Source: Candidatus Zhuqueibacterota bacterium (GTDB lineage Bacteria > Zhuqueibacterota > Zhuqueibacteria > Residuimicrobiales > Residuimicrobiaceae). From it: a DNA stretch of 43,779 bases. The translations under genes and the position numbers were made by a program. Location: contig CAUJEL010000210.1 of assembly GCA_963169875.1 (NCBI GenBank), positions 1 to 43,779 of the forward strand, read 5' to 3'. The notes under the pieces were generated by a model, which saw nothing but the letters and a program-made list of their open reading frames with translations, did not search any database and was not told the DNA's origin. Below, in pieces: positions 22,605 to 39,372 of the stretch (within the stretch, counting starts at the first letter, position 1; each line of letters begins with the position of its first letter).

Positions 22605-24608
22605 GTGAAGATTCAAACAACGTGCCCGTTTTGCGGATGCGGTTGCGGGATGCTGCTCGAAGTAGAAGCAAACCAGGTGATCAGCGCCAGCCCACAACGA
22701 TCTCATCCACTCAGCCGCGGTACTTTATGCATCAAAGGGTGGAATGGTCACCAGATCATCCACCATCCACAACGTCTCACACAACCCCTCATTCGTAACC
22801 GGCAAAAATTAGTACCAGCTTCCTGGCGGCAAGCCATCACCCTCGTTCATGATAGACTCGCCAAACTGCGCGATGACCATGGCGCGGACTGCATCGGTGT
22901 GATCGGGTCCGTTAAAACTACGACAGAAGAGGCTTACCTGCTCAACCGTTTGGCCCGTTCCGTGCTGGGAACGCCCCATGTCGATTCACTGGTGCGCTAC
23001 GATCACGCGCCTTCGGTGCGCGTGCTGCAGGCGCAGATGGGATATGCCACCGCGTGCGCCGGGATTCTTGATATCGAGAAAGCCTCGGTAATCCTGATTG
23101 CCGGCGCCAATCCCAAGGCGCAGGCGGCGCGCGTTGGATCATATATTTTCCAGGCCGCCAAACGGGGGATTCCCGTCATCCACATCGATCCCCGGCAGCA
23201 GGAACACACCCCACTCTACACACTTTTTATGCAACCACGCCCCGGGACCGATCTGGCCCTGTTCAATGCCCTGCTTCACGTCATCATCGCCAGAGGCTGG
23301 CAGGATCCCGGTGTTTTGGGAATTTCCCATTTGCGCGATGACGGCTTGCAGCGCTTTACGCCCGAGTATGCCGAACAGGTGTGCGGCGTGCCCGCGCATC
23401 AGATCGTCCAGGCGGCTGAACTCATGGCCAAATCCGGGCCAGGTGTGATTATTTATGGTACCGGCGTCACCCAGCAGGTCAATGGCACGGCCAACGTACA
23501 GGCGTTGTGGAATCTGGCGCTGCTGACCGGGAATATGGGCCGCGAAGGCGCCGGCTTGATCCCCTTGCTATCAGCCAACAACATGCAGGGCGCTATTGAT
23601 GCCGGTTTGATGACGGAGCTGGCGCCGGGACATCGTTTGATCAAGGAAACCCCGACCCGACATGATGTAGCTGAATACTGGGGGAGCCTGCCTGAAAAGA
23701 AGGGACTCACGGTGCAGGAGATGCTGAATCAGGCCGGCAAACGCATTAAGGGTCTGTATGTGGTCGGAGAAAACCTGGCCTGGGCTGCACCGGATACGCA
23801 AGCCTCGACAAAAGCGTTAAAAAATCTCGATTTCCTGGTGGTGCAGGATCTGTTCCTCACCGAGACCGCTGCGCTGGCGGATGTGGTCCTGCCGGCTTGC
23901 AGTTACGCCGAGAAGGAAGGGACCTTCACCAACCTGGAGGGCCGGATACAGCGCGTGCGTCAGGCGATCCGGCCTGTCGGGGCGTGCCTGTCCGATGGCG
24001 AGATTATCGCCAGATTGGCCAAGGCCTTTGGCGCCACGTTTCCGTCCGATCCCAAACAGATATTTCTGGAAATGCAGTCTTGCATACCCTGTTACCAACA
24101 GATCAAATATGCTCAGCTGGATCAGCCGGGCGGAGTCGTCTGGCCTGCCCCGGGTGCCCAAAAAGGAAATGGCCGCTGTCGTGCGCTTTTGGGCGAGCGC
24201 CGCGGCGGCTTCTATCCGGTCACGGCGGGGGCGCCGTTCACGGAACCGCCGGATGACGAATATCCTTTTGCCTTGTTCACGGGACGGCCGGTTTTTCATC
24301 GCCGCACCGGCACCATGGTGAGCCGCTCTTTTACCCTGGACAAGGAGGATCCCATCGTCACCGTGGAAATCAACACGGATGACGCGAAAGCCTTGAAATT
24401 GCGCAGCGGCTGGCCGGTTAAAGTGGTCACGCGGCGGGGTCACCTGCGCTGCACACTGGTGGCTACCCGTGCCATTGCCCCGGGTACCCTGTTCCTTCCC
24501 ATTCATCACAAAGAGGGTCTCTCGCAGTCGTTGATGCTGGCGGCCCTGGAGAGCGAATCCGGGATTCCTGAAATGAAACTCTGTGCCGCAAAATTGGAGA
24601 CGGCGTGA
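22605..24608 (+). CDS. FdhF/NuoG-like molybdopterin-fold subunit lacking formate-dehydrogenase residues
   Basis: The 667-residue protein is of the molybdopterin oxidoreductase family. It has an N-terminal [4Fe-4S] motif (C7, C10, C14, C42), the central cofactor domains and a C-terminal dinucleotide-binding domain (V-S-R-S-F-T-L near the end). Aligned by eye to E. coli FdhF, the catalytic Sec/Cys position (A-R-V-U-H-G-P-S-V) is D133 (V-R-Y-D-H-A-P-S-V), and the catalytic Arg (V-R-G-Q-N-N) is L322 (L-L-S-A-N-N); His134 is kept. It is therefore unlikely to oxidise formate. It may only carry electrons, as in NuoG, or use another substrate. The start is GTG with AAAGGAG 7 bases before. It opens the hydrogenase operon. 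Confidence 0.9.
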   Translation: MKIQTTCPFCGCGCGMLLEVEANQVISASPQRSHPLSRGTLCIKGWNGHQIIHHPQRLTQPLIRNRQKLVPASWRQAITLVHDRLAKLRDDHGADCIGVIGSVKTTTEEAYLLNRLARSVLGTPHVDSLVRYDHAPSVRVLQAQMGYATACAGILDIEKASVILIAGANPKAQAARVGSYIFQAAKRGIPVIHIDPRQQEHTPLYTLFMQPRPGTDLALFNALLHVIIARGWQDPGVLGISHLRDDGLQRFTPEYAEQVCGVPAHQIVQAAELMAKSGPGVIIYGTGVTQQVNGTANVQALWNLALLTGNMGREGAGLIPLLSANNMQGAIDAGLMTELAPGHRLIKETPTRHDVAEYWGSLPEKKGLTVQEMLNQAGKRIKGLYVVGENLAWAAPDTQASTKALKNLDFLVVQDLFLTETAALADVVLPACSYAEKEGTFTNLEGRIQRVRQAIRPVGACLSDGEIIARLAKAFGATFPSDPKQIFLEMQSCIPCYQQIKYAQLDQPGGVVWPAPGAQKGNGRCRALLGERRGGFYPVTAGAPFTEPPDDEYPFALFTGRPVFHRRTGTMVSRSFTLDKEDPIVTVEINTDDAKALKLRSGWPVKVVTRRGHLRCTLVATRAIAPGTLFLPIHHKEGLSQSLMLAALESESGIPEMKLCAAKLETA

Positions 24609-25657
24609 TGCAGGTGAGTGCCAAAGCAATTGTCCCGAAAACTCTGTTTCTCGAAGGTCTGGCGCGGTGCATGAAGAAAACAGAAGTCATTGCGCCGGTA
24701 AAAATGAAGGGCGGTGATATCACCTTCGAGCCCATCAGCAATGTACGCCAAATCACCTTCGACTATGTGAACGATCACGATCCTCTGAAGCGTTTTTTCA
24801 TACCTGCCCGCGAAGAGCTATTCTCTTACCATTTCTCCGGCAACAAGCCGGTCGCGAAATCTCCGCCCCAGCCCAAGCCGCGCGTCCTGTTTGGCATCCG
24901 CTCCTGTGATCTGCAGGGGCTGGCGCATATGGATGGGTTTTTTCAGGGAGCCTTTGAGGATCAACTTTACTGGCAGCGCCGCCAACAGACCCTCACCATC
25001 AGTCTCGCCTGCACCGAGCCCCTGGATACCTGTTTTTGTATCTGCTGCAATGGCGGGCCCTGGCTGGAGCATGGGTTCGATCTGCAGTTGACGGATCTCG
25101 GCGAGACATTTCTCGTCGAGATTGGCAGCGCCGCCGGCCGCAGGTTTCTCGAAGAGTGGCACGTGCCCTGTCAGTCCGCCAAACGCAAAGATCTGCAGCT
25201 GCGTCAGGAATTGATGCAAAAGTGCGATGAGAAAATGATCCCCACTGCCTATCTCGCCAAAGCCTGTATTCAGATCACCAATAATCGCGTGCGGGAAGAA
25301 TTGTGGGATGAGATGGGCGCGGAATGCTTCAGCTGCGGCGGTTGCACGCACGTATGCCCGTGCTGTACCTGTTTCGACGTCTACGACTGCCCTCAGGAAG
25401 ATGGCCAGGGTACGCGGTATCGCTGCTGGGATTCCTGCCAATACGCCGGCTTTACACGCGAGGCTTCCGGGCATAATCCGCGCGCAAAGGCCAAAGAACG
25501 TGTGAAGAGACGGTTTTATCATAAACTCAGCTATGCCTATATTCAACAGGATGGTCATCCGGGTTGTGTGGGTTGTGGCCGCTGCATCACCGTGTGCCAG
25601 GCTTTCAACCAGCTCGATGTGCCAGCCGTCGTGAAACGTTTACGCCGAGATGGATAA
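24608..25657 (+). CDS. HydB/AsrA-like Fe-S electron-transfer subunit
   Basis: The 349-residue protein matches the beta subunit of sulfhydrogenases (HydB) and AsrA. It has an N-terminal domain with G-I-R-S-C-D-L-Q-G-L and C-T-E-P-L-D-T-C-F-C, and two C-terminal ferredoxin motifs: C-F-S-C-G-G-C-T-H-V-C-P and C-V-G-C-G-R-C-I-T-V-C-Q, the second with Gln replacing Pro. The ATG overlaps the preceding stop (TGATG), and GGAG lies 8 bases upstream. HydB passes electrons between a flavin subunit and a catalytic subunit. The next gene encodes that flavin subunit, so together they form an NAD(P)H-reactive module. AsrA of sulfite reductase is excluded because no AsrC is present. Confidence 0.88.
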   Translation: MQVSAKAIVPKTLFLEGLARCMKKTEVIAPVKMKGGDITFEPISNVRQITFDYVNDHDPLKRFFIPAREELFSYHFSGNKPVAKSPPQPKPRVLFGIRSCDLQGLAHMDGFFQGAFEDQLYWQRRQQTLTISLACTEPLDTCFCICCNGGPWLEHGFDLQLTDLGETFLVEIGSAAGRRFLEEWHVPCQSAKRKDLQLRQELMQKCDEKMIPTAYLAKACIQITNNRVREELWDEMGAECFSCGGCTHVCPCCTCFDVYDCPQEDGQGTRYRCWDSCQYAGFTREASGHNPRAKAKERVKRRFYHKLSYAYIQQDGHPGCVGCGRCITVCQAFNQLDVPAVVKRLRRDG

Positions 25658-26489
25658 CCATACCATGGAAAATCTCTATCTTCCTGATTTGGCCTTGATC
25701 GATCGCATCGTTGATGAGACCAGCGATACCAAGACGTTCACCCTGCATTTCGCCAATAAGGCGCTGAATCGGCGTTTCAGTTTCAAATCCGGTCAATTTG
25801 TGGAAGCGACTGTATTTGGTGTCGGGGAAGCGCCTTTCGGGTTTGCCTCCAACCCCCATACGCCGCAGCAGTTTGATATCACGGTCCGCGCTATTGGCGC
25901 TGTCACCCATGCCATGCACGCCCTGAAAGAGGGCGACTATCTGGGCATCCGCGGCCCTTTGGGGAATTCTTTTCCCCTGGAGGAGGTCACAGACCAGGAT
26001 ATTCTCTTCATCGCGGGCGGCATCGGCCTGCCGCCGCTCAAGTCGCTCATCGAACCCATGCTCGACCGTCGCGACGAATTCGGTCAGTTCATCATCCTTT
26101 ATGGCGCCCGTACGCCGGCGGACCGGGTCTATAAACCGCTGCTGGAAACATGGAGCAAACGCACCGATATCCAGTTCCTGCAGACCGTCGATACGCCGGA
26201 CGCAACGTGGCAAGGCCCGGTCGGTGTGGTTACCACCTTGATGGAAAAAATCAAGCTCGATATCAACCGGACCGTGGCTTTCACCTGCGGACCGCCGGTC
26301 ATGATTCGATTCGTCATTCAGGACCTCCTCGGCATGGGCTTTGCTGAAGATCGCATCATTTCGACGCTGGAGCGCTACATGAAGTGCGGTGTGGGCAAAT
26401 GCGGACACTGCGCCATTGGCCATAAATATATTTGTGTGGATGGGCCGGTCTTCTCCTATCGTCAGATAAAAAGGCTGCCGGAACGATGA
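25650..26489 (+). CDS. HydG/AsrB-like FAD/NAD(P)H-binding subunit
   Basis: The 279-residue protein belongs to the ferredoxin-reductase-like family, like the sulfhydrogenase gamma subunit and PyrK. It has an FAD-binding barrel (about 10-100; F-K-S-G-Q-F-V-E, then P-F-G-F-A-S-N-P), an NAD(P)-binding domain (I-A-G-G-I-G-L-P-P-L-K-S-L-I, about residue 127; T-C-G-P-P-V-M) and a C-terminal [2Fe-2S] motif C-G-V-G-K-C-G-H-C-A-I-G-H-K-Y-I-C. It overlaps the preceding gene by 8 bases; a second ATG at 25665 is possible. It should exchange electrons with NADH or NADPH. Which nucleotide it prefers cannot be decided. Confidence 0.9.
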   Translation: MDNHTMENLYLPDLALIDRIVDETSDTKTFTLHFANKALNRRFSFKSGQFVEATVFGVGEAPFGFASNPHTPQQFDITVRAIGAVTHAMHALKEGDYLGIRGPLGNSFPLEEVTDQDILFIAGGIGLPPLKSLIEPMLDRRDEFGQFIILYGARTPADRVYKPLLETWSKRTDIQFLQTVDTPDATWQGPVGVVTTLMEKIKLDINRTVAFTCGPPVMIRFVIQDLLGMGFAEDRIISTLERYMKCGVGKCGHCAIGHKYICVDGPVFSYRQIKRLPER

Positions 26490-26515: not shown

Positions 26516-27019
26516 TTGCCGGAACGTACAGATCCGTTCTTTCATACTCTTACCCATCACCTGCGCCACGGCAGAGTTGTCCTGCTTGGCATCGGCAATC
26601 CTGATCGTGGTGATGATGGATTGGGCCCTGTTCTGGCCCGGCGGCTGCCTGATCACCCGCATCTGCACAGCATCGTCTGCGATGAGATGCCGGAGAATTA
26701 TACCGGTGAAGTCAGAATGCTCAAGCCGACGTTTGTCGTGCTCATCGACGCCGTTGATTTTCACGGCGAACCCGGTGAAGGGATCGCTTTAAGGGCGCAG
26801 GATTTGAGTGATGACCGCTTCTCCAGTCACAAGCCTTCACTGGCATTGTTGATGAACTATTTGCAGCAAGAAACCACAGCCGAGGTGATCCTCTTCGGCA
26901 TTCAGCCGGCGCAGCGGGGATTCCGGGAAGGTCTGAGTCCGGAAGTCGAAGCTGGTGTCTTTCGCATGGTGGCATTATTTGAGCGCATTACGCTTTCCAT
27001 CGAGAAGGAAAAATACTGA
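26516..27019 (+). CDS. hycI: HycI-type [NiFe]-hydrogenase maturation endopeptidase
   Basis: The 167-residue protein has the hydrogenase protease fold: G-I-G-N-P-D-R-G-D-D-G-L-G-P near residues 25-38, the nickel-sensing acids D33/D34 and D75, and H102 (S-S-H-K-P-S-L). The C-terminal I-L-F-G-I-Q-P motif is of the HycI subtype, which serves hydrogenase 3-type enzymes. The enzyme cuts the C-terminal tail of the large subunit after nickel insertion. The start is probably TTG at 26516, with GGGGAG 7 bases before it. The large subunit in this operon keeps a 30-residue tail after D-P-C-F-S-C-T-E-R, the expected substrate. Confidence 0.92.
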   Translation: MPERTDPFFHTLTHHLRHGRVVLLGIGNPDRGDDGLGPVLARRLPDHPHLHSIVCDEMPENYTGEVRMLKPTFVVLIDAVDFHGEPGEGIALRAQDLSDDRFSSHKPSLALLMNYLQQETTAEVILFGIQPAQRGFREGLSPEVEAGVFRMVALFERITLSIEKEKY

Positions 27020-28473
27020 TGCTCAGCGTGATTCTCCTGATCCTGTTTCCGGTTGCCGGCGCGATCCTGTCCATGATAGCGCCGAAAAAACGTCTCACTC
27101 TGGTTGCCTGTGGCAGCGTGACCGGGATGCTGCTCTCCCTGATCTGGCTTTTTATTCAAAAGCCACCGGGGGCTTGGCGTGTTCTGATTTTTTCGTGGCA
27201 ATGGATTCCCGGCACAGCATCCCAGGGCCTCTTCGGTTTCCTCCTGGATCCGCTGAGTACCTTGCTGCTTTTGGTTGTTGTGGTGCTTGGTTTTTTGGTG
27301 ATTCTCTATGGCACGGGCTACATCAGCCGCCACAATCGTGAACATGCCAGCGAAGACGGCCGCGAGCGGCACAACTTCTGGCTGCTCCTGTTCATCGCCG
27401 CCATGATCGGTGTCGCACTTTCACCCAATTTACTGCAGCTGTTCTTCTTCTGGGAAATGACCACGCTTTGTTCATGGGCGCTCATCTCGCACTACCGCAA
27501 TGCCGAATCGTTGCGCGCGGGTTTTAAAGCGCTGCTCATGACCTTTTCTGGCGGATTATTCTTCGCGGCCGGACTGGTGGTGCTTTATGTCCATACCGGC
27601 CGGTTTGATTTTGATGCCCTCTCGGAACTGGCGCCGCGCCTGCGATTCTGGATTTTTCTCTTTTTCCTGATCGCCGCGTGGGCCAAGTCCGCACAATTCC
27701 CTTTTTACACCTGGCTTCCTGATGCCATGGCCGCCCCGACAACCGTGAGCATGTATCTTCACGCAGCCGCCATGGTCAAGGCGGGTGTCTTCCTCATCGC
27801 CCGTCTCACCTTTGCCAATTTCGACATCCCGTGGCTCTCCGGACTGATCGTCGCGATTCTGGCTGTCGTCACCATGTCTCTGGCCCTGTTTCTGTTTTTC
27901 ACACAGTCTGATCTCAAAAAACTTCTCGCCTACTCCACCATCGCGCATCTTGCCTACGTACTCTTTGGCCTCGGTCTGGCGATGATGGGCTGCAAATTGG
28001 GCGCCTATGCGGGTGCAATGCATATCCTGAATCACAGCGTGGCCAAGGGACTCCTGTTCTTGTGCGTGGGCGTTCTCTCGTATTCAGCCGGCACACGGCA
28101 AATCGACGAACTCAGCGGTGTTGGCAAAAAGCTGCCGTTCCTGGCCGTCGCCTTTGTCTGCGGCATGCTGGCGCTCCTGGGCGTGCCGCCGTTTTCAGGA
28201 TTCTGGAGTAAATTCTATTTGCTGGCAGCAACCCTGAAGCTGGGAGGTACGGCCGGCTGGCTGCTTCTGATTCCATTTCTACTGGAAATCATTCTCGGAT
28301 TTGCCTGGTTTCTGCACATCGGTCATAAAGTATTCTTTGGCATACCCTCGGCAAAGGCCGCGGATGCACAACCCGTGCCCTTTAGCATGCAATTTGCCCT
28401 GGGGGTGTTGGTGGTACTGACTCTGGTCGTGCCCTATATTGGTTTGCAATTGATGCACGCCATGGGAATGTGA
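27019..28473 (+). CDS. NuoL/MrpD-like ion-translocating membrane subunit (first)
   Basis: The 484-residue protein has about 14 membrane helices and the antiporter-like core of Complex I and Mrp proteins: F-F-F-W-E-M-T-T-L-C-S (about residue 143, with the conserved Glu), A-A-W-A-K-S-A-Q-F-P-F-Y-T-W-L-P-D-A-M (about 220-238, with the pump Lys) and L-H-A-A-A-M-V-K-A-G. It starts at ATG overlapping the hycI stop (TGATG). It should conduct H+ or Na+ as part of the membrane arm. The adjacent gene encodes a second copy of the same fold, and a third lies after the HyfE-like gene. Confidence 0.92.
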   Translation: MLSVILLILFPVAGAILSMIAPKKRLTLVACGSVTGMLLSLIWLFIQKPPGAWRVLIFSWQWIPGTASQGLFGFLLDPLSTLLLLVVVVLGFLVILYGTGYISRHNREHASEDGRERHNFWLLLFIAAMIGVALSPNLLQLFFFWEMTTLCSWALISHYRNAESLRAGFKALLMTFSGGLFFAAGLVVLYVHTGRFDFDALSELAPRLRFWIFLFFLIAAWAKSAQFPFYTWLPDAMAAPTTVSMYLHAAAMVKAGVFLIARLTFANFDIPWLSGLIVAILAVVTMSLALFLFFTQSDLKKLLAYSTIAHLAYVLFGLGLAMMGCKLGAYAGAMHILNHSVAKGLLFLCVGVLSYSAGTRQIDELSGVGKKLPFLAVAFVCGMLALLGVPPFSGFWSKFYLLAATLKLGGTAGWLLLIPFLLEIILGFAWFLHIGHKVFFGIPSAKAADAQPVPFSMQFALGVLVVLTLVVPYIGLQLMHAMGM

Positions 28474-28514: not shown

Positions 28515-30575
28515 ATGCCGACATTCTTTGCAGCGGTAGCTATTTATCTGACCGGCGCGTTGATCACGTTGTGGATGGGGGATAGACGCCGCAGCATCGG
28601 CTGGGTCGCCTGGGGCGCGTCTTCTCTTGCCACGGTGCTGATCCTCGCATGCGTCATCCAGGTTTTCACCTCCGGGCCGATAATCATGGAAAAGGCTTTG
28701 TGGCAGGTACCTGGATTGGGCGCCTCATTGCTTTTCCGCATCGATTATCTCAGCGCGCTGTTCCTGGCCATCATCTCCATCATCAGCGTGCTGGTCACCC
28801 TGTACGCGCAGAGTTTCATGCAGATCGCCCACTATCAGCAGCAGAGTCTGCGCTATTTCTACGCCGTCCTGCTACTCTTTTTCGCAGCGGTCATCGCGGT
28901 GGTTGCCATTTCGGACCTGTTCTTCTTTTTTATATTCTGGGAGATGATGACCCTGTGCTCCTATTTGCTGGTCATTTACCGCAGCAATGACGCGACGCGA
29001 CTGCGCGCAGGCTTTAAGTATTTCTTTATGACCCACGTGGCTACGGCCTTTTTATTCATTGGCGGACTTGTACTCTACCTTCACAGCGGATCTTTCTCGT
29101 TCACAGCCCTGAAAAGCGCGATGGTGCAGATGCAGAGCGCATCTCCAGGCCTGCTCCACCTGGTCCTCGGCTTCTTTCTGTTGGGTTTTGCGACCAAGGC
29201 CGGCATTTTGCCGATGGGAGATTGGCTGCCCGATGCGTATCCGGCGGCTCCAGCGCCTGCTTCAGTCAGTTTCGCCGGCAGCATGACCAAACTGGGTATC
29301 TATGGTGTGATCCGCGTTTTCTGCGATTTTCTGCCTGCGGGTTCGCATTCACAGGTATGGGGATTGACCATCGCCTGTCTTGGCGCCATTTCCATCCTTG
29401 TCGGCACCATGACCGCCCTGGTACAGGAGGACGCCAAACGCTTGCTCTCCTTTCACGTCATCGGGCAGATGGGCTACATATTTCTCGCCATCGGCACCGG
29501 CATCTATTTTCTCCCGGTTCAGCCTGTTTTGGCAATAATCGCCCTGGGGGCCGGTATTTTTCATCTCATCAATAATGTCTGCTATAAATCATGCCTGTTT
29601 TTTGTTGCAGGTTCTGTCTTTTATAAAGTGGGGACGCGCGACATCAATAAAATCGGCGGCCTGGCGACGATTCTGCCCTTGACAGCCGGTGTTGCTGTTA
29701 TTGCTTTTCTCTCCATTGCGGGCATTCCGCCCTTTAGCGGTTTTTCAAGCAAGTGGCTGATTTACGAGGCCACCCTGCGCGGCGGTTTCTTGAAACCGGT
29801 TTTTGTGATACTGGGCTTGCTGGCCATCTTCGTTTCCGCAGTGACTTTGGCTTCTTTCATAAAATTTATCGGTTCGGTATTCTATGGCAAATACGCCGAT
29901 AACAAGAGCAAAGCCAAAACGGGTGATGTGCCCTGGTCCATGCAAATACCCCAGTTTGTATTGGCCGGCCTATGCATTCTGTTTGGTTTATTTCCGCGCC
30001 TGCCCGTGCAATGGATCTTTCGCGCGCTGACGCCGCTGTTCCCACCGGGATTTGTGGGTGATGCCTCCAGCGTCTACGGCCACAGCACATTGGCCGGTCT
30101 CGAATTGCATGTGAACGATGCAGCAGCCGGATGGCAGGCGCTGCCCTTGTTCGTGGTTTTTGTTCTCTGTGCTGCCCTCGCCTTCTACCTCTTCAGAAGC
30201 GCAAAAGTAACCCAGCGCGCGGATCAAACCTGGTTCGGCGGTGAGCCGATCAAAAACGAGGATGGGCGTTACCGCGCGCACAGCTATTATCTGCCCTTCA
30301 AACAGATTTTCAGGATACGCATCGGGAAATATGAGCGACCGGGGGTCTATCCGACGATTCGCTATCCTGACATCCATCTTAAAAAGGACGATTTTTGGCA
30401 TCGTCTGATCGATGTGGACCGGTGGTTTTATACTCCACTGGTCAACGCAACGATGCGTTTCTTGCGCTTCTTCAGCAACACCCATAGCGGTCTGCCCCAT
30501 GTCTATTTGTTATGGATGCTGATCGGGGCGCTCCTGACAGTTATTCTGCTTTTTGCATTTTCTGCTGGTAAATAA
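28515..30575 (+). CDS. NuoL/HyfB-like ion-translocating membrane subunit (second, long C-terminus)
   Basis: The 686-residue protein has about 16 helices. The N-terminal antiporter domain shows F-I-F-W-E-M-M-T-L-C-S, G-F-A-T-K-A-G-I-L-P-M-G-D-W-L-P-D-A-Y and I-N-N-V-C-Y-K. After about residue 500 a long extension runs through an amphipathic segment with W-F-G-G-E-P-I-K-N-E-D-G-R-Y-R-A-H-S-Y-Y to a final helix. This layout resembles HyfB/HycC and the Complex I NuoL lateral-helix type. The start at 28515 lacks a strong site. Together with its neighbour it gives the complex more than one ion channel. Confidence 0.9.
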   Translation: MPTFFAAVAIYLTGALITLWMGDRRRSIGWVAWGASSLATVLILACVIQVFTSGPIIMEKALWQVPGLGASLLFRIDYLSALFLAIISIISVLVTLYAQSFMQIAHYQQQSLRYFYAVLLLFFAAVIAVVAISDLFFFFIFWEMMTLCSYLLVIYRSNDATRLRAGFKYFFMTHVATAFLFIGGLVLYLHSGSFSFTALKSAMVQMQSASPGLLHLVLGFFLLGFATKAGILPMGDWLPDAYPAAPAPASVSFAGSMTKLGIYGVIRVFCDFLPAGSHSQVWGLTIACLGAISILVGTMTALVQEDAKRLLSFHVIGQMGYIFLAIGTGIYFLPVQPVLAIIALGAGIFHLINNVCYKSCLFFVAGSVFYKVGTRDINKIGGLATILPLTAGVAVIAFLSIAGIPPFSGFSSKWLIYEATLRGGFLKPVFVILGLLAIFVSAVTLASFIKFIGSVFYGKYADNKSKAKTGDVPWSMQIPQFVLAGLCILFGLFPRLPVQWIFRALTPLFPPGFVGDASSVYGHSTLAGLELHVNDAAAGWQALPLFVVFVLCAALAFYLFRSAKVTQRADQTWFGGEPIKNEDGRYRAHSYYLPFKQIFRIRIGKYERPGVYPTIRYPDIHLKKDDFWHRLIDVDRWFYTPLVNATMRFLRFFSNTHSGLPHVYLLWMLIGALLTVILLFAFSAGK

Positions 30576-30595: not shown

Positions 30596-32281
30596 GTGAT
30601 GACGGCTAAAGAAATAACAGGTTTCCTGAAAAAACGATTTGCGGATAAAATCAAGCGGGTGGAATATCCGGTGCATGACATGGTGCTTCTGCATATCGAG
30701 CGCGAGGATAGCGTCGAGATAAACCGTTTCCTTTTCCATGAACTGGCGGGCCGGTTTGTTGTTGCCATTGGAACGGATCATCGCGAGGAATCCGGCGGTT
30801 ATCTCGTCGACTATGTCTATTCACTGGCTGCCCACCATCTCTTCATCACGGCGCAGTTCAAGGTGCCGGCCCATGATCTGTGGATCGAAGCGATCACCGA
30901 ACAGGCGGACATCCCGGCCGCGAATTGGGCGGAACGGGAAATTCAGGATATGTTGGGTATTCCGCTGCGACACCATCCCGATCCGCGGCGGCTCATGCTG
31001 GCGGATGATTGGCCGGCGGATATGCCGCCTTTGCGCCGTGACATGCCCTTGCAGACCTATCCCGCATCCGTGAATGAGACCCCCATATTTAAAAAGCCAC
31101 CCGAGGGAGCAACGGTCGTCCCGATCGGTCCTTTTTTTCCGGTTCTTGAGGAGCCGGCACAGTTCCGTCTTTTCGTCGAAGGGGAGAAAGTGGTGGGCGG
31201 CGATTATCGCGGTTTTTACAATCACCGCGGCGTCGAAAAAATCGCCGACAGCCAGCTGAACTATAATCAGGTGCCGTTCCTCGCGGAACGCATCTGCGGC
31301 ATATGAGGGTCGGTTCACAGTACGGCGTACTGTCAAGCAGTTGAAAAAGCAGCAGAAATCGAAGTCCCGGCCCGGGGCCGCTTCATTCGCACGATCCTGC
31401 TCGAGTTGGAGCGGGTGCAAAGCCACCTCCTGTGGCTGGGCATCGCTGGCCATATCATCGGTTTTGATACCGTGCTCATGCAGGCATGGCGTATCCGCGA
31501 GCCGGTTATGTGGCTGTGTGAAAAAATAACCGGCAACCGCAAACTGCTGGGCATGAACCTGATCGGCGGCGTGCGTCGCGACATTCCCGCGGAGATTCAC
31601 GATGAATTGTTGCAGGTGCTGGCGCGTGTTGAAAAAGAGACCAAACAGGTCATCAATGCGATTGCCGATGACACAACGCTGCGCGCGCGGTGTGTGGATG
31701 TAGGCGTGCTGACTCCGCAACAGGTCATTGCCTACGCCTTGCTGGGACCAACCGCCCGCGCCTCCGGCGTGGGCATCGACATCCGCGTCGATCATCCCTA
31801 TGCTGCTTACCAGGAATTGGGCTGCGAGGTGATGGTGGAAAATGGTTCCGACATCTGGTCCAGGGTGCTGGTGCGCATGCGCGAAACCCTGGAAGCGATT
31901 CGCATTATCCGCGACGCACTGCGATTCATGCCTTCAAGCCCCATAATCGCTGATATCAGAGAACCGATTCCACCAGGGAAAGTTGGACTGTCTTCCGTGG
32001 AAGCCCCCCGCGGGGAAACGCATCACTTTGTCATAACGGGTGAAGACAGCCGCCCCTATCGCTGGAAGGCGCGCGCGCCGACATTCCAGAACCTGCAGGG
32101 CATACCGGTCATGGTCGCCGGCGAATACATCGCCGATGTGCCTATCGGCCTGGGCAGTATGGACCCCTGTTTTTCGTGCACCGAGCGTCTGGAAACCGTG
32201 GACGTCAGAACCGGACAAGTGCGTGTCTATTCCAAAAAGGAACTTGTAGAGTTGTACCGCCGTCGCTACGAAGGAAAATAA
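30596..32281 (+). CDS. HycE-type [NiFe]-hydrogenase large subunit with UGA-encoded Sec in the N-terminal Ni motif
   Basis: Read through the TGA at 31304-31306, one frame gives 561 residues; ORF finders split it into two parts. Residues about 1-155 form a NuoC/HycE N-domain; the rest is the NuoD/hydrogenase fold. Nickel motif L1 is R-I-C234-G-I-U237-G-S-V-H; motif L2 is D-P-C525-F-S-C528-T-E-R, followed by a 30-residue tail, so this is a hydrogenase, not NuoD. U237 replaces the second L1 cysteine, a bridging ligand in known structures. A perfect stem-loop follows the UGA. GTG 30596 is chosen because GGAGG is 8 bases away; ATG 30599 is possible. Downstream residues are fully conserved, which argues against a pseudogene. 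Confidence 0.93.
31317..31333 (+). promoter_or_regulatory. SECIS-like hairpin in the hydrogenase large-subunit gene
   Basis: ACAGUAC (31317-31323) pairs perfectly with GUACUGU (31327-31333) around the loop GGC. The loop starts 18 bases after the UGA, inside the 16-37 base range used for bacterial SECIS elements, and its first two bases are G. Confidence 0.88.
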
Positions 32282-32328: not shown

Positions 32329-33231
32329 ATGCGTGGATTTCTATTCGGATTGTGGCAAATCATTTTGGTCTTGATGCTGGCGCCCTTGCTCGATGGCATC
32401 ATGCGCAAATTGGTGGCCCTGGTGCATTCCCGTATCGGACCTCCGGTTCATCAACCCTATCTTGATCTGCTCAAGTTGCTCGGCAAAGAAGAGATGGTCA
32501 GTTCACCCTACACATTTTTCAGGTATAGCGCGGTGCTGGCCCTGGCAGCCATACTCACCTCGGCTGTGCTTGTGCCGTTGGGAGCAGCACCCCCCATGGA
32601 ATCCAGCGGCGACATCATCGTTTTTATCTATCTGGTGACCCTGGCAGCCGTGATGGTGGTCCTGAGCGGTATCACCTCCGACAGTCCGTTTTCTTTTATT
32701 GGCGCTTCGCGCGAAGTGATGTTTCTGCTGACGGTGGAACCGGTCATCGTTGTCGCGCTGGTGATCATGGCCATCAAGGCGCAATCCACGCAGTTCAGTG
32801 ATGTCATCGCGTATCACGCACAGGCGCCTTTTTCTCTGTCAGTGCTCATTGCGGGAGGCGGCCTGTTTCTGGCCATCATCGCCCAGATGGCGCGATTGCC
32901 ATTTGATACCGTCGAAGCGGATCAAGAGATCATGGAAGGTCCGTTCATCGAGCAGAGCGGCCCCAAATTGGCGCTGTTCAAGTGGATGATATATGTCAAG
33001 CAGCTCATTTTTGCGGCGGTATTTATCGCGGTCTTTATTCCCTGGCCGATGTTTGAAAATTACGGATTGAGCCTGGTCACTATATTGGTCAAGATGGCCA
33101 TACTGCTGCTCCTGGTCGCGGTCGTGCATGTTGTCAATCCGCGATTGCGTATCGATCAGGCGGTGCGATTTTTCCTGATTCTGCTCGTCCTGGAAATCGG
33201 TGGCCTCGCATTCGCACTCGTCGGCTCCTGA
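32329..33231 (+). CDS. NuoH/HycD/EchB-like membrane-anchor subunit
   Basis: ATG at 32329 has AAAGGAG 5 bases before it and is preferred over an earlier in-frame start that would overlap the large subunit gene. The 300-residue protein has about 8 helices and the family motifs: R-I-G-P-P-V-H-Q-P-Y-L-D-L-L-K-L-L-G-K-E (about 36-55) and R-L-P-F-D-T-V-E-A-D-Q-E-I-M-E-G-P-F-I-E (about 188-207). The subunit holds the hydrogenase arm on the membrane and passes redox-driven changes to the ion channels. The signature is of the hydrogenase branch rather than of respiratory NuoH. Confidence 0.94.
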   Translation: MRGFLFGLWQIILVLMLAPLLDGIMRKLVALVHSRIGPPVHQPYLDLLKLLGKEEMVSSPYTFFRYSAVLALAAILTSAVLVPLGAAPPMESSGDIIVFIYLVTLAAVMVVLSGITSDSPFSFIGASREVMFLLTVEPVIVVALVIMAIKAQSTQFSDVIAYHAQAPFSLSVLIAGGGLFLAIIAQMARLPFDTVEADQEIMEGPFIEQSGPKLALFKWMIYVKQLIFAAVFIAVFIPWPMFENYGLSLVTILVKMAILLLLVAVVHVVNPRLRIDQAVRFFLILLVLEIGGLAFALVGS

Positions 33232-33239
33232 TGTTCATG

Positions 33240-33385
33240 TAAGGTCGTGGGCTGAGGCATTCTGTGGTCCGTCATTGTCCGTGATCCATTGTCTGTCGTC
33301 CGTCGACTGTGTTAGAGAGTTTATTGTCTGTTTAGCGTGAACCATCGTGTGTTTTTCGTCGTCCGTGATCCGTCGTCTGTCGGCT
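33240..33385 (+). repeat. Degenerate GTCCGT-rich repeat between NuoH- and NuoI-like genes
   Basis: The 178-base gap is full of GTCCGT/GTCTGT/GTCGTC units. The longest related pair is GTCCGTGATCCATTGTCTGT (33277-33296) and GTCCGTGATCCGTCGTCTGT (33361-33380). It is the only long gap within the hydrogenase operon. It looks like a degenerate tandem repeat; no frame runs through it. Confidence 0.6.
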
Positions 33386-33409
33386 TTTGTTTATTTTGCA
33401 AGAGGACTT

Positions 33410-33904
33410 ATGATTGTATCCAAGCTCAAGGAAGCAAAAATCTGTTTCAGTAATTTGCGGGTGACGCTGCCATATCCTTTTGGCCCGGGTGCGGAAGTGG
33501 GGGAGGGGTTCCGGGGCAAGCTCAAGGTGGACGCCGAAAAGTGCGTTGGATGCGGCGGCTGCGCCAATGTCTGTCCGTCCAGGCTCATCCGCTTTTACGA
33601 TGATGGCGAGCAGACGCGCATGGAATTCATTCTGGACCGTTGCACCTATTGCGGCCGTTGCGCCGAGGTGTGCCCTGAAAACGCCATAACCATGACGCAA
33701 ACTTTTGAGACTGCCACCAACGACAAAACCGATCTTTACATAGAGCAGGAATTATACATGCTCACCTGTAAACGCTGTGGCCGCTGCTTTGAAACCAACA
33801 ATGCCATAGACCGAATCCCAACGCAGCGCATGCGCCGAGGCCGCAACTTTGTCGGCGCTTCCATGCCGCACGGCGCGCCAGAGGGAGGGGAGCCCGGGAA
33901 ATGA
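33410..33904 (+). CDS. HycF/NuoI-like 8Fe ferredoxin subunit with extra cysteine motif
   Basis: ATG at 33410 with AGAGGA just before it gives 164 residues. Two [4Fe-4S] motifs are complete: C45, C48, C51, C55 and C78, C81, C84, C88, each ending C-P. A further half-motif C-K-R-C-G-R-C-F lies at C120, C123 and C126, and resembles the C-terminal motif of HycF/HyfH. The subunit carries electrons between the peripheral electron-entry proteins and the small hydrogenase subunit. The stop overlaps the next start (ATGA). It follows a repeat-rich gap inside the operon. Confidence 0.92.
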   Translation: MIVSKLKEAKICFSNLRVTLPYPFGPGAEVGEGFRGKLKVDAEKCVGCGGCANVCPSRLIRFYDDGEQTRMEFILDRCTYCGRCAEVCPENAITMTQTFETATNDKTDLYIEQELYMLTCKRCGRCFETNNAIDRIPTQRMRRGRNFVGASMPHGAPEGGEPGK

Positions 33905-34569
33905 TTACCGAACAGAGCCTCATCACGCTGATGCTTGCGATTATCATCGCCTCTGTGGCTGCTTTGGAGATCCGCAACCTAAAGTACGCCACCTACGCTT
34001 ATCTCATCAGCTCAATTTTTCTTTGCGGTATCATCGTCAGCTATGCTTTCTTGAGCCGCAATGAAAGTCTCTATCTATGGGCGATCACCTGCGTTCTCAT
34101 CAAAGTGATCATTGTTCCGCGGTTGCTGATACGTTATATCAGGATGATCCCGCAAATGGAACACCAGCCCGTCATAGGACTGGTGCTTTCAGTGGCTGTT
34201 CTGGTTCTTATGTTAACAGCTTTTTATCGTGTTTTCCATACTTATATCGCTTTTTTTGCACCCACGGATGCGGCCCTGCGCGCGCCGGTTCGTGATCTGC
34301 TCGCCGGTGCCTGCACGGTTTTTATGCTCGGAATTTGGACCCTGCTGAGCCGACGGGATGTCATCAAGACCGTCATTGGCCTGGTCCTGATGGAGAACGG
34401 TGTTCACCTGATCCTGCTCGCACTCGCGCCGCAATTGAAAGAAACCACCATGATCGGCATTTTAACGAATGTGGTCGCTGTGGTCTTTATTCTCCTTTAT
34501 CTGAGCGCGGACATTTACCGGATATTTGGGACTACCGATTCCGCGCGGCTGTCTGAGCTCAAGAGATGA
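33901..34569 (+). CDS. hyfE: HyfE-like membrane subunit (NuoK-like)
   Basis: The 222-residue protein has about 6-7 helices and overlaps the ferredoxin gene by ATGA. Its C-terminal half resembles NuoK, with I-G-L-V-L-M-E-N-G-V-H-L-I-L-L (about 158-172, including the conserved Glu) followed by a final helix pair. HyfE proteins are the hydrogenase-4 counterpart of NuoK and occur only in hydrogenases with the large membrane arm (Hyf, Mrp-Mbh types), not in the small hydrogenase 3. Its presence implies an ion-pumping complex. Confidence 0.9.
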   Translation: MITEQSLITLMLAIIIASVAALEIRNLKYATYAYLISSIFLCGIIVSYAFLSRNESLYLWAITCVLIKVIIVPRLLIRYIRMIPQMEHQPVIGLVLSVAVLVLMLTAFYRVFHTYIAFFAPTDAALRAPVRDLLAGACTVFMLGIWTLLSRRDVIKTVIGLVLMENGVHLILLALAPQLKETTMIGILTNVVAVVFILLYLSADIYRIFGTTDSARLSELKR

Positions 34570-34579
34570 TGAGGTTGCA

Positions 34580-36091
34580 ATGACGACTGATTATTCCTGG
34601 ATCCCGCTGCTGTTGATCATCTGGCCTGTCCTCGGCGCCATTGTTATTGAAATATGTGCCGCAGTGAAAAAGACCGTATGGATTGAACGTGTGGCCATCG
34701 TTTTTGCGCTCGCACAGTCGGGGCTTTCGTTGTTTCTCGGCCTTGGTGTGTGGGGGCGCGTTCCGGTGCGCGTGGACGATTTCTCGCTTCTCGTCGATGG
34801 GTTGAGCGCTTTGATGGGATTTCTCATCAATGCAATGATTTTATTGATATTGTTGTTTTCTGTGCGTTACATGAAGCACGAGCAGGAGCAGGGCCTGGTC
34901 AGTACCCGGAGGCATCGTCTCTACTATACTCTGATACTCATCTTCGCCGGATCCATGAACTGGACTGTCACGACCAATCATCTCATCCAGTTATATGTGG
35001 CCATGGAGGCTTCCACCCTGGCGACCGCCTTGTTGGTTGCCCTCTATCGCAAAAAGGCCTCCCTCGAGGCTGGATATAAATACATTATCCTTACCGTTGT
35101 GGGCATGACTTTTTCATTATTGGGAATGGTGCTCATATTTGCGGCGGCGTATCCGCACATTGGGGCGGAGGCACTCCTGCTGTCAAAAATCGGCCATGTC
35201 GTCAGGATCATTCCCAGGAATGTCGCCCTGTTGGGCGTCGCCTGCATGACCTGTGGATTCGCCTGCAAAGCGGGTCTGGTTCCTTTCCACGCCTGGCTGC
35301 CGGACGCTCACTCCGAAGCGCCTTCTCCCGTCAGCGCCATGCTCTCCGGATTGATCATCAAAATTGGCGCCTATGCCCTGGCGCGAACCGTTACCATTTT
35401 TGCGCCAGCCAACCATGGCATCGTCCTCTTCATCGCGCTGCTGGCTTGCATAAGCATGCTCATTGGTATCATGATGGCCCTTGTTCAGGATGATCTCAAA
35501 CGAATGCTCGCCTATTCGAGCGTCAGTCAAATCAGCTATATTTTCCTGGGGCTGGGATTGGGATCCTACCTTGGCATTTACGGTGCTTTGTTTCATCTCG
35601 TCAACCATACACTCATCAAGGCTCTGCTCTTCATGAGCGTCGGTGCGATAATGTATGCGACCGGAGGCGTTCGCCGCATCTCGCAACTGGGCGGACTGGC
35701 GAAAAAAATGCCGGTGACTGCTTTTTGTTTCATCGCCGGTGCAGTGGCACTTGGCGGCCTGCCACCCTTCAACGGGTTTGTGAGCAAATTCAGCCTTTTT
35801 CTCGCTGCCGGTGAAAAACATCTTTACTGGGCAGTCGCTGTTTCCATATTCACCGGACTGTTGACGCTGGCATGCCTGGTGCGTGCGGGGTATCTGGTTT
35901 TCTGGGGCAAACCCGCGTTGGCGGAATCGCAGACGAATGCTGATATCCGAGAAGTGCCCAGGTCGATGTATATGGTGTTACTCATTCTTGCAGCTTTGTG
36001 TCTGGTCATCGGACTTTTCCCGAATCTGCTCTATCCCATTCTGGATGGTGCCGCGCGCTCGATTTTGGCGGTATGCTCAGCTGGCAGCTGA
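34580..36091 (+). CDS. HyfF/NuoN-like ion-translocating membrane subunit (third)
   Basis: ATG at 34580 with GAGG 5 bases before it is chosen over an earlier frame that overlaps hyfE. The 503-residue, 14-helix protein carries the antiporter motifs: L-Y-V-A-M-E-A-S-T-L-A-T-A (with the conserved Glu, about residue 138), G-F-A-C-K-A-G-L-V-P-F-H-A-W-L-P-D-A-H-S (about 228-247, with the pump Lys) and H-L-V-N-H-T-L-I-K-A. The H-A-W-L-P-D-A-H-S-E-A-P motif is typical of HyfF. It is the third protein of this fold in the operon, so the membrane arm is as large as those of Hyf or Mbh-type complexes. Confidence 0.93.
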   Translation: MTTDYSWIPLLLIIWPVLGAIVIEICAAVKKTVWIERVAIVFALAQSGLSLFLGLGVWGRVPVRVDDFSLLVDGLSALMGFLINAMILLILLFSVRYMKHEQEQGLVSTRRHRLYYTLILIFAGSMNWTVTTNHLIQLYVAMEASTLATALLVALYRKKASLEAGYKYIILTVVGMTFSLLGMVLIFAAAYPHIGAEALLLSKIGHVVRIIPRNVALLGVACMTCGFACKAGLVPFHAWLPDAHSEAPSPVSAMLSGLIIKIGAYALARTVTIFAPANHGIVLFIALLACISMLIGIMMALVQDDLKRMLAYSSVSQISYIFLGLGLGSYLGIYGALFHLVNHTLIKALLFMSVGAIMYATGGVRRISQLGGLAKKMPVTAFCFIAGAVALGGLPPFNGFVSKFSLFLAAGEKHLYWAVAVSIFTGLLTLACLVRAGYLVFWGKPALAESQTNADIREVPRSMYMVLLILAALCLVIGLFPNLLYPILDGAARSILAVCSAGS

Positions 36092-36148: not shown

Positions 36149-36649
36149 ATGATAAAAAGATGGACGCAAAAAGCATTTCCAAAATCACTGTGGGTCTATC
36201 ACACCAATTGCGCGGCCTGCAACGGGTGTGACATTGAGATCATCAATGTGTTGACACCCTACTATGATGCGGAGCGTTTTGGCATAAAGCTTGTGGGATC
36301 GCCGCGGCATGCGGATGTGCTGCTGGTCACTGGTGGCGTGTCGCGGCAGATTGCGCCGGCTCTGCGGCGCCTTTATGCGGCCACGCCAAATCCCAAATTG
36401 GTATTTGCAATCGGTTCCTGCGCCTGCGGTGGAGACGTATTTTACGATAGTTATGCCATGTACGGCGGCGTCGATAAGGTTATTCCGGTCAATTTTTACG
36501 TCTCAGGTTGCCCACCGCGTCCCGAGGCCATATTGTACGGTGTTGCCGTCGCATTGGGACTGGCGCCCAAAAAAGTGGCCAAAGAGATCATCCGTGATTT
36601 TCCTGAAGCAGCAGATATCGATGTACCCATGCTGGAATTGCATAAATAG
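36149..36649 (+). CDS. HycG/HyfI/NuoB-like small hydrogenase subunit
   Basis: The 166-residue protein has the proximal [4Fe-4S] ligands of group 4 small subunits: C24 and C27 in C-A-A-C-N-G-C-D-I-E, C91 in G-S-C-A-C-G-G, and C121 in S-G-C-P-P-R-P-E-A-I. C21 and C93 are extra cysteines beside them. It contacts the large subunit and delivers electrons to the Ni-Fe site. It ends the operon; a hairpin with GCGC stem and five T residues follows at 36654-36673, a weak terminator. Confidence 0.95.
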   Translation: MIKRWTQKAFPKSLWVYHTNCAACNGCDIEIINVLTPYYDAERFGIKLVGSPRHADVLLVTGGVSRQIAPALRRLYAATPNPKLVFAIGSCACGGDVFYDSYAMYGGVDKVIPVNFYVSGCPPRPEAILYGVAVALGLAPKKVAKEIIRDFPEAADIDVPMLELHK

Positions 36650-36777: not shown

Positions 36778-38811
36778 ATGGAACCCATCGTCACCACGAT
36801 TGAACACCGCTGCAAACGGTGCTACCTCTGCGTGCGTCGCTGCCCGGCCAAGGCCATTCGCGTTGAAAACGGGCAGGCCAAGGTCATGGCGGAACGCTGT
36901 GTCGCTTGCGGGTATTGCGTTCGGGTTTGTCCCCAGGGCGCCAAGCAGATACGGGATGGCATCCGGCACAGCAAAACGCTGCTGCGGGGTCAGAGCCGCA
37001 AGGTGGCGATCCTGGCGCCTTCGTTTCCCGCCGCTTTCGGTGCGGTTAAACCCTTGCAGCTGGTGACCGGATTACGGCGTCTCGGCTTCGATGCGGTATA
37101 TGAAGTGGCTCTCGGCGCGGACCTGGTGGGCGCTGAATACGCCCGGCTGTTGCAGAAGAATATCATGCCGATCATCATTACCTCACCATGTCCTGCCATT
37201 GTGAATTACATTGAAAAATATGTACCTGAATTGCTTTTGGTGTTGGCCCCCATTGTTTCACCGATGATCGCGTTGGGCCGTCTTTTGCGGGAACAGTGGG
37301 AGCCGGAGGCGCACATCATTTTCATCGGCCCCTGCATCGCCAAAAAACATGAGGCCGATGACCCCAAAACCGGGGATCTGATTGACGAAGTATTGACTTT
37401 TGAAGAGCTGTCGCGTTACTTTCTGGAGCAGGATATCCAGATTGAAACACTGCCGGAAACACCCTTCGACGGGCCGGAGGCCGGCGTCGGACGCGCTTTT
37501 GCCATATCCGGAGGACTGCTCGATACCGCCAAGATTCCCGGCGGTACACTGCAAAATCATGTCATCGTCACCGAAGGCCGCGACCGCGTTCTGGAGGCAC
37601 TGCAAAAAGCGAGTGAAGGGAAAATCGAAGCGCAGTTTCTCGACCTGCTCTTCTGCGAGGGCTGTATCAACGGTCCGCAAATGGCGCAAGATCTGTCCGT
37701 CTTTGTACGCAAAGATCGCGTCGTCCATTTCCTGCGCCACTCAGAAACAGGCGTTTCTCTCCAAGAACGCAGTGACTGGATGCGAGAGATCAAACCCATC
37801 AATCTGATGCGCGAGTATACGCGTGAAGACCTGTCTCTTCCGATGCCCGATGAGGAGCAGCTCAAAGCGATCCTGGCGATCACCGGCAAAATTTCGCTGG
37901 AGGATGAGTTGAATTGCGGCGCGTGCGGTTATCCCACCTGCCGGGAAAAAGCGGTTGCCGTATTTCAGGGGATTGCCGAAGCGGAGATGTGCCTGCCGTA
38001 TCTGATCGACAGGCTGCAGCTGATTAGACAGGAATTGACCGTCTCCAATGATGAATTGCGGCGTTCTTTGGATACCCTGCAGCGCACGCAGCAGCAGCTT
38101 GTACAATCCGAAAAAATGGCCTCTGTCGGCCAATTGGCAGCGGGTGTGGCGCACGAGTTGAACAATCCCCTCGGCGGGATTCTCATTTATGCCAGTCTGC
38201 TGCTGGAAAAAAGCGAGAAGCAATCCCGGCAGGCTGAAGATCTGTCCCGGATCATGGCCGAAACGGACAGGTGCCGCAAAATCGTGCGCGGCCTCCTCGA
38301 TTTCTCCAGACAGACCCGCATTGAAGCGGCCATTGTCGATCTCAATAAAATTATCGCCAGCACACTGAGTCTGGTGACGCAGCAGGCGCTCTTTCACAAC
38401 ATCAAGGTTGTGCAAAAACTATCACCCGGTCTGCCGCAGGTTTTTGTCGATGTCGGCCAGATTCAACAGGTGCTGCTCAATATCATCCTCAACGCAGTGG
38501 AAGCCATGTCCGGGAAAGGGGACTTGACCATTTCGACGGCCATGGAATCCGATGGTCAATATATCAGCCTCAGCATTGCCGACAACGGCAGCGGCATGCC
38601 GCCTGAGGTGATGGATAAAATATTTGAGCCCTTTTTTACCACCAAGCCGCGCGGCAAGGGCACCGGCCTCGGCCTCGCCATCGCCTATGGCATCATTCAA
38701 AAGCACAAAGGCGAGATTCTGGTCAAGAGCGAGGAGGGAGAGGGCAGTGATTTCATCATCCGGCTGCCAGTTGCACAAAAGATGGAGATTGGTGTAAATC
38801 CCCTGGATTAA
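36778..38811 (+). CDS. [FeFe]-hydrogenase-like sensor histidine kinase
   Basis: The 677-residue protein joins four parts. Two [4Fe-4S] motifs (C12-C22, C41-C51) come first. An H-cluster-like domain (about 75-310) shows T-S-P-C138-P, G-P-C186-I-A-K-K-H-E and L-F-C293-E-G-C296-I-N-G-P. A further Fe-S motif follows (C380, C383, C388, C405). Last is a coiled coil and histidine kinase with H459 in the H-box (V-A-H-E-L-N-N-P) and complete N, G1 and G2 boxes. In catalytic enzymes the first motif is T-S-C-C-P and the last C-x3-C; here the proton-transfer Cys is Pro and the last spacing is C-x2-C. It is likely a sensor of H2 or redox state. ATG 36778 follows AGAGGATGAG. Confidence 0.93.
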
Positions 38812-38897
38812 TAGCGGGAAAAAGTATATATTTTCAATGACGGCGCAATGCTGTTGCCCCGTCAAAGCGTGTATGAATCGATTTAGGAGTGCTTTTC

Positions 38898-39344
38898 ATG
38901 GCCAACAACCCCAAAATACTGCTCATCGATGATGATCCGGATTTTATCATGATCAATCGCACGATCCTGGAGAGCGAGGGCTATCAGGTGGATGCGGCCC
39001 ACGACCCAATATCCGGCTGGGAGAAAATCAAATCCTGGAAGCCGGATCTCATCTGTCTGGACGTGATGATGCCCACCGGAACGGAGGGATTTCATTTCGC
39101 CTATAAAGTGCGCCGCGATCCCGATACCCAGCACATTCCCATAATCATGATAACTGCGATACATGAGTACAGCGATTTCCGCTTCTCGACCGAAGATGGC
39201 GACTTTTTACCCGTCGATGAATTCATCGAGAAACCCATCCGTAAAGATGTGCTTCTGGCCAAAGTTAAATCGCTTCTCGCTGCTGCCACGCCGCAAAAAA
39301 CAAAGCAGCAGCGCGACCAGGGCATTGGCTGGAAGAAAAATTGA
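38898..39344 (+). CDS. Stand-alone receiver-domain protein (first)
   Basis: The 148-residue protein is a single CheY-like receiver with D11-D13 in the acidic pocket, phospho-acceptor D55, and an E-K-P-I lysine motif near residue 113. It has an insertion, E-Y-S-D-F-R-F-S-T-E-D-G-D-F-L-P, before that Lys, which the next receiver also carries in altered form. There is no output domain, so it should relay phosphate or act by protein contact. AGGAG lies 8 bases before ATG 38898. It follows the sensor kinase and is probably its target. Confidence 0.93.
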   Translation: MANNPKILLIDDDPDFIMINRTILESEGYQVDAAHDPISGWEKIKSWKPDLICLDVMMPTGTEGFHFAYKVRRDPDTQHIPIIMITAIHEYSDFRFSTEDGDFLPVDEFIEKPIRKDVLLAKVKSLLAAATPQKTKQQRDQGIGWKKN

Positions 39345-39372
39345 TAACTGGAAGGCCGTTGGATAAAGCAGG

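Follow-up and report, generated by a model that had tools for sequence, protein, structure and literature searches.

We have identified, in a stretch of DNA of 43,779 nucleotides (the window), a gene that very probably encodes a functional selenoprotein, i.e., the large subunit of a group 4 [NiFe]-hydrogenase (complex-I-like and membrane-bound) in which selenocysteine (Sec) at position 237 would bridge Ni and Fe, and in whose sister lineages both ligands of the N-terminal (L1) motif would be Sec. At the level of sequence this is supported by a conserved UGA, a SECIS-type hairpin, Sec genes, intact motifs, the operon and the fold, from which we infer Sec incorporation, Se ligation, catalysis and the direction of catalysis.

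An in-frame UGA in a HycE-like large-subunit gene

The gene under study (30596–32281, forward strand) encodes a HycE/HyfG-like [NiFe]-hydrogenase large subunit with fused 30-kDa and 49-kDa domains, as judged from its domains, its alignment to HycE and its predicted fold, and the Pfam domains present in it are complex I 30-kDa, complex I 49-kDa and NiFeSe hydrogenase. Translation would start at GTG 30596 or ATG 30599, and the product including Sec237 would be 561 aa long. The sole internal stop of this frame is the TGA at 31304–31306 (codon 237), located between RICGI and GSVHSTAYCQ, and the frame reads ...AERICGI-U-GSVHSTAYCQ...SMDPCFSCTERLETVDV... on the same strand. Based on the sequence and its homologues, we predict that this codon specifies Sec at the second Cys position of L1 (R-I-C-G-I-U-G-S-V-H). 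The first L1 ligand, Cys234, is encoded by TGC (31295–31297), which the codon alignment pairs with UGA in the double-Sec relatives, and the two C-terminal (L2) ligands, Cys525 and Cys528 (CxxC, 32168–32179), are part of a DPCFSC motif (codons 523–528; Cys codons 32168–32170 and 32177–32179) and are Cys in all homologues whose codons could be read at these positions. Since neighbouring genes end in TGA as an ordinary stop, UGA is not generally reassigned in this genome, which contains no Cys paralogue of the large subunit, the remaining matches being only 28–32% identical.

Our search of 60 related genomes identified 14 close homologues (66–87% identity) in KSB1 and Calditrichota MAGs, and all 14 contain exactly one internal stop, a TGA at codon 237. 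The initial annotation of this DNA had described a UGA in place of the second Cys of the L1 motif, within a frame that is intact through to a C-terminal D-P-C-F-S-C, and had proposed a search for the same UGA in related L1 motifs, with loss of the downstream half in homologues as a point against its reading. Re-reading the sequence bears out the description, there being no other stop in the frame; the UGA is conserved across the related genomes, and the homologues keep the downstream half.

Fold, ligands and operon of a predicted group 4 hydrogenase

The best solved relative of the large subunit is HycE of the E. coli formate hydrogenlyase (7z0s, E = 1e-121), followed by the P. furiosus MBH (6cfw), and in the alignment to these two proteins the UGA pairs with the second Cys of R-x-C-G-x-C. 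An AlphaFold2 model built from a 32-sequence alignment (pLDDT 85.2, pTM 0.87) also found its best match in 7z0s HycE (TM 0.89/0.94). In structures of [NiFe]-hydrogenases, each CxxC pair supplies a terminal Ni ligand with its first Cys and a bridge between Ni and Fe with its second, and position 237 would therefore be a bridge and position 234 a terminal ligand. Residues of HycE that include the terminal Cys531, together with Glu193, Arg478 and Asp529 (PMC9474812), correspond here to Cys525, E186, R472 and D523, all of them invariant in the alignment; His241 is also kept, and the C-terminal extension of the large subunit aligns to that of HycE.

The surrounding operon, all on the forward strand, contains upstream of this gene a molybdopterin oxidoreductase-family subunit (formate-dehydrogenase/NuoG-like, 22605–24608) whose Cys/Sec ligand position is Asp, two genes like sulfhydrogenase HydB (beta) and HydG (gamma, FAD/NAD(P)H) that are likely an electron input/output module (24605–26489), a HycI-type hydrogenase maturation protease (26516–27019; TIGR00072 and PF01750 over cut-off), and HyfD-like (27019–28473; PRK06525 over cut-off) and HyfB-like (28515–30575) membrane antiporter subunits. 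Downstream are a HyfC/NuoH-like membrane anchor subunit (32329–33231, with ATG 32329 the likely start of an ORF that opens at 32176), a HycF/HyfH-like ferredoxin subunit (33347–33904), a HyfE-like (NuoK-like) membrane subunit (33901–34569), a HyfF-like membrane antiporter subunit (34526–36091) and a HyfI/HycG-like small subunit (36149–36649), in which the motifs CAACNGC...GSCACGG...GCPP are present and the adjacent-Cys pair is absent, i.e., its cysteines are of hydrogenase type and not of complex-I type. Relatives keep this order (Mo-family subunit, HydB-like, HydG-like, HycI-type protease, HyfD, HyfB, Sec subunit, HyfC, ferredoxin, HyfE, HyfF, small subunit).

Scores place the Mo-family subunit with formate dehydrogenases, but its ligand position is Asp, and relatives have Tyr, His, Thr or Asp there. 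Since Asp takes the place of the Sec or Cys of formate dehydrogenases, formate is doubtful as a substrate, and the product of 22605–24608 is probably not a formate dehydrogenase; the formate dehydrogenase with a Sec or Cys ligand by which a formate hydrogenlyase is recognized is absent here. The HydB/HydG-like subunits suggest an exchange of electrons with NAD(P)H, and the joining of this pair to complex-I-like group 4 genes suggests that the operon encodes an NAD(P)H-linked, ion-moving hydrogenase. Beyond the small subunit, 36778–38811 encodes an HsfB-like sensor in which an [FeFe]-hydrogenase-like domain is joined to FeS and histidine kinase domains; it lies next to response regulators (38889–39786) and is likely to sense H2 or redox state for the hydrogenase operon.

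By its L1 and L2 motifs, operon, predicted fold, maturation genes and C-terminus, the protein is thus predicted to be a group 4 [NiFe]-hydrogenase of the HycE/HyfG type. Two claims of the initial annotation are supported by this evidence, i.e., that the enzyme would be a group 4 membrane hydrogenase (L1/L2 motifs, complex-I-like operon and HycE-like fold) and that the residue encoded by UGA would be a bridging ligand (the HycE/MBH alignment puts it at the second L1 Cys, which is the Ni-Fe bridge by established chemistry). Its description of the enzyme as H2-evolving goes beyond the evidence, as the input module resembles the NAD(P)H-linked HydB/HydG subunits of sulfhydrogenase and the formate-dehydrogenase-like subunit has no Cys/Sec ligand.

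It could be argued that a Sec protein is made that is no working hydrogenase, i.e., a complex-I-like subunit without a Ni-Fe site, given that the group is homologous to the 49-kDa subunits of complex I and that we found no natural precedent for Sec at a bridging ligand. However, S or Se would occupy all four ligand positions with an unbroken L2, neither the proton-path residues nor the C-terminal extension has been lost, the operon contains a HycI protease gene, and the small-subunit cysteines are those of a hydrogenase, all of which makes this explanation very unlikely.

Distribution of L1 UGAs among homologues

We also analyzed a wider set of 75 loci from many phyla, some of them from the same KSB1-type genomes. 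Homologues from other phyla mostly have TGC or TGT at the position of codon 237, with TGA present at this codon in L111 (an Acidobacteria MAG), at both L1 cysteines in L058, L061, L083 and L087, and at the first L1 cysteine only in L056. Two more loci with U-G-I-U (L180 and L182) came to light in 198 genomes searched around L083 and bring the double UGA (R-I-U-G-I-U-G) to five related loci and one distant Armatimonadetes locus (L087). No UGA was found in L2 at any homologue position with readable codons. The double-UGA L1 and the UGA at the first Cys only are both new in the present analysis.

Our phylogeny of 79 large subunits joins the 14 single-Sec KSB1-type genes in one group (98% SH-aLRT) and L056, L058, L061 and L083 in a second (100%), with L087 and L111 placed elsewhere. 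This tree needs at least four changes between Sec and no Sec, with the long branches L087 and L111 unsurely placed. We consider it likely that [NiFeSe]-hydrogenases with Se at an N-terminal ligand arose naturally more than once, with a single bridging Se in the KSB1-type genes and Se at both L1 ligands (U-G-I-U) in two further lineages.

A candidate SECIS element downstream of the UGA

The UGA is followed by a hairpin of the bacterial SECIS type (31317–31333, forward strand), recognized by its pairing, its conservation and published rules, in which the arms ACAGTAC (31317–31323) and GTACTGT (31327–31333) form a 7-bp stem around the loop GGC (31324–31326). The perfect 7-bp stem and the GGC loop had been seen from the sequence at the outset, with the stem said to start 18 bases after the UGA, but it is the loop that lies there and the stem starts at 11. 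Published rules for bacterial SECIS elements describe a loop of 3–9 nt, a stem of 4–16 bp, a G within the first two loop bases, a spacing of 16–37 nt and an MFE of at most -7.5 kcal/mol (PMC13188914). The SECIS check proposed in the initial annotation comes out in its favour, since the hairpin conforms to every one of these rules, with a 3-nt loop that opens with G, 7 bp, a spacing of 17–18 nt and an MFE of -8.6.

Stems of 6 or more Watson-Crick pairs at a fixed place, i.e., those that close a loop at base 20–22 from the UGA with a G at loop position 1 or 2, occur in 21 of 21 Sec loci versus 0 of 60 Cys loci, where loci within a lineage are not independent and the independent lineages number about four. 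When codons were recoded synonymously, an equally good stem appeared in 0.2% of trials with the window gene, in 0 of 20,000 with L014 and L058, in 1% with L087 and in 8% with L111, whose hairpin alone is not significant. Under lax rules (G-U pairs allowed, anywhere within 16–37 nt), 7-bp stems are frequent (29%) and hairpin strength does not separate Sec from Cys genes, and the hairpin by itself is therefore weak evidence. Synonymous codon conservation in the 15 KSB1-type Sec genes has its gene-wide peak directly after the UGA (0.87 versus a gene mean of 0.46), and the conservation of columns 238–251 was matched in 0 of 100,000 permutations; no such peak is present at the same stretch in 60 Cys homologues (p = 0.06). 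Covariation in the stem is minimal, and with so little variation there its statistics are weak; L087 shows one compensatory change (U-A to C-G) in the stem, and L111 has a hairpin of different sequence at the identical place. The same hairpin occurs in the double-UGA genes at a permitted distance from either UGA, and one hairpin could serve the two. An Rfam scan of the window at gathering thresholds gave no match.

The Ile codon immediately 5′ of the UGA in the window gene (31301–31303, forward strand) is ATA. This codon makes up 6–12% of the Ile codons in these genes and precedes UGA(237) in 20 of 20 Sec237 loci; it also precedes UGA(234) in the four double loci tested, a place at which the single-Sec genes differ. 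The exception is L056, which has ATT. An ATA at this place may tune the decoding of the UGA. Parts of the same hairpin sequence are retained in five Cys (TGC/TGT) homologues (L046, L086, L097, L045 and L105), some of them in genomes without selA, and these are possible Sec-to-Cys reversions with SECIS remnants.

A UGA that terminates translation would give a 236-aa N-terminal protein, and the C-terminal part might be translated from its own start, the subunit then being split or regulated; neighbouring genes do use UGA as an ordinary stop, and the ORF restarts at TTG 31406. Such a break would, however, fall inside the metal-binding motif and remove a metal ligand, and zero homologues are split at codon 237. 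With a SECIS-form hairpin that is specific to the UGA genes, Cys codons at this position in homologues and the Sec machinery present, we give termination only a very slender chance of being correct.

Selenocysteine machinery

The initial annotation had proposed testing the genome for selA, selB, selC and selD, and we found selA, selB (over cut-off) and selD, in addition to hypD. The tRNA-Sec gene (selC) was not found in this assembly (95.6% complete) with two patterns or in a DNA search with the gene of the same-genus genome G001. Rfam candidates for tRNA-Sec in the genome were rejected as ordinary tRNAs. Using ARAGORN, we identified tRNA-Sec in G001 and at ten further loci from genomes with Sec genes; those in the KSB1-type lineage are L175:817–911 (same genus), L152, L163, L149, L146, L162, L164 and L166. 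This shows that selC is present at least in these KSB1-type relatives, unlike in a 2022 survey of KSB1, where selABD was reported and selC was absent (PMC9012183). The selD gene (L115, G000:C41:33180–34103) also contains an in-frame TGA, and SelD is itself a predicted selenoprotein.

All 15 KSB1-type Sec-hydrogenase genomes contain selA, as do 53 of 60 genomes of the class (over cut-off), and because the gene is this widespread in the class, its presence is necessary and not discriminating. Outside this lineage selA discriminates better: full selA is present in the genomes of L056, L061, L083, L087 and L111, with only a weak match in the small assembly of L058; it is absent from the genomes of the TGC loci L046, L064, L086 and L097 and present for the TGT loci L045 and L105.

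Natural read-through of UGA by near-cognate tRNAs exists, and it is conceivable that this codon is read as Trp, Cys or Gly instead of Sec. But Cys occupies the exact position in other homologues, selA is found with the UGA at the five distant loci named above and is absent from the genomes of the four TGC loci, and the hairpin fits recoding by SelB, so that we hold such a reading to be extremely improbable. A sequencing or assembly error or a decaying pseudogene, for which TGC to TGA is a single base change and all sequences compared are from metagenome-assembled genomes, is rejected for the family by the conservation of the UGA, with TGA at this codon in the window gene, in 14 independent related genomes and in the Acidobacteria locus, an otherwise open and conserved frame, and synonymous sites hyper-conserved in the codons after the UGA, which leaves it a probability close to nil.

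Proposed function and significance

We propose that SelB, guided by the hairpin at 31317–31333, would insert Sec at UGA 31304–31306 of the large-subunit mRNA, and that maturation by HypA-F and the HycI-type protease would precede an assembled NiFe(CN)2CO site with Cys234 as a terminal ligand, Sec237 bridging, Cys525 terminal and Cys528 bridging; in the sister lineages, Sec would replace both L1 cysteines. A bridge containing Se would be electron-richer and more polarisable, and may resist irreversible oxidation or speed Ni insertion and reactivation. The enzyme may move ions as it exchanges electrons between H2 and either NAD(P)H or ferredoxin.

Among the 119 families of prokaryotic selenoproteins inventoried in 2026 are FrhA and VhuA/VhuU hydrogenases with U-x-x-C and no group 4 large subunit or L1 Sec, and natural [NiFeSe] enzymes are described there only from sulfate reducers and methanogens (PMC13188914). 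Group 4 hydrogenases are unlisted for Zhuqueibacterota in a phylum-level paper. No natural hydrogenase with Sec in L1 was found in the literature searched, subscription papers and preprints being outside its reach, and as far as this literature goes, the only other known cases of Sec at the bridging position are engineered E. coli enzymes. If our reading is correct, these genes represent a second natural route to a Ni-Fe-Se site, taken by complex-I-like enzymes that convert energy, and in the double form one Ni would carry two selenolates, with a UGA-x-x-UGA pair apparently sharing one hairpin. The advantage of selenium has so far been explained from the L2 terminal Ni ligand, the sole natural Sec position described. 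With a natural bridging Sec and a double-Sec site, the proton-relay role of selenium (L2 terminal) could be told apart from its role in the Ni-Fe bridge, in O2 protection and in metal insertion, and the question of what selenium does would become testable with natural proteins. A selenoprotein family would also be added to an enzyme class with none listed, and its Sec UGA offers a reason for gene callers to truncate these genes.

Comparison with known systems

The classical [NiFeSe]-hydrogenases (HysA of Desulfovibrio and Desulfomicrobium, FruA, VhuU) have Sec at the first L2 position, where it is a terminal Ni ligand, in a U-x-x-C near the C-terminus. The window protein would likewise place Sec at the Ni-Fe site by UGA recoding, but its L2 is C-x-x-C without Sec at the first position, Sec is predicted in L1, at the bridge or, in relatives, at both L1 positions, and it is a membrane group 4 enzyme rather than one of group 1 or 3.

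E. coli HycE (7z0s) is the closest solved relative, with 38% identity, the same fused 30-kDa and 49-kDa domains, the same motifs and the C-terminal extension; HycE has C-G-I-C, whereas the operon here adds HydB/HydG-like genes and a formate-dehydrogenase-like subunit without the Cys/Sec ligand, and is of the Hyf type, i.e., that of HyfG of hydrogenase-4. The P. furiosus MBH (6cfw) is a group 4 large subunit with the same L1 and L2 motifs and 38% identity in the fold alignment, but it has Cys at the corresponding L1 position and a single-domain large subunit. HydB and HydG of sulfhydrogenase resemble the pair at 24605–26489, although there they belong to a soluble group 3b enzyme and here to a membrane group 4 enzyme.

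Engineered enzymes offer the remaining comparison. Each of the four cysteines of E. coli Hyd-1 was reportedly replaced singly by Sec by Evans et al. in 2021. For E. coli Hyd-2, Evans et al. 2024 report an active, processed enzyme with a single Sec at 61, 64, 546 or 549, and a marked change in electrocatalysis only for C546U (L2 terminal) (PMC11212049). By motif position, Hyd-2 position 64 is window residue 237 and position 61 is the first L1 cysteine. These Hyd-1 and Hyd-2 variants are man-made, belong to group 1 and were obtained by UAG recoding, with no double L1 variant in the parts consulted, whereas the UGAs described here are natural and of group 4. Since a single Sec at all four Hyd-2 positions gave an active enzyme, a bridging Sec would be chemically compatible with function, and since the marked change was reported only at 546, the advantage of selenium at the bridge may lie elsewhere, e.g., in repair after oxidation or in metal insertion.
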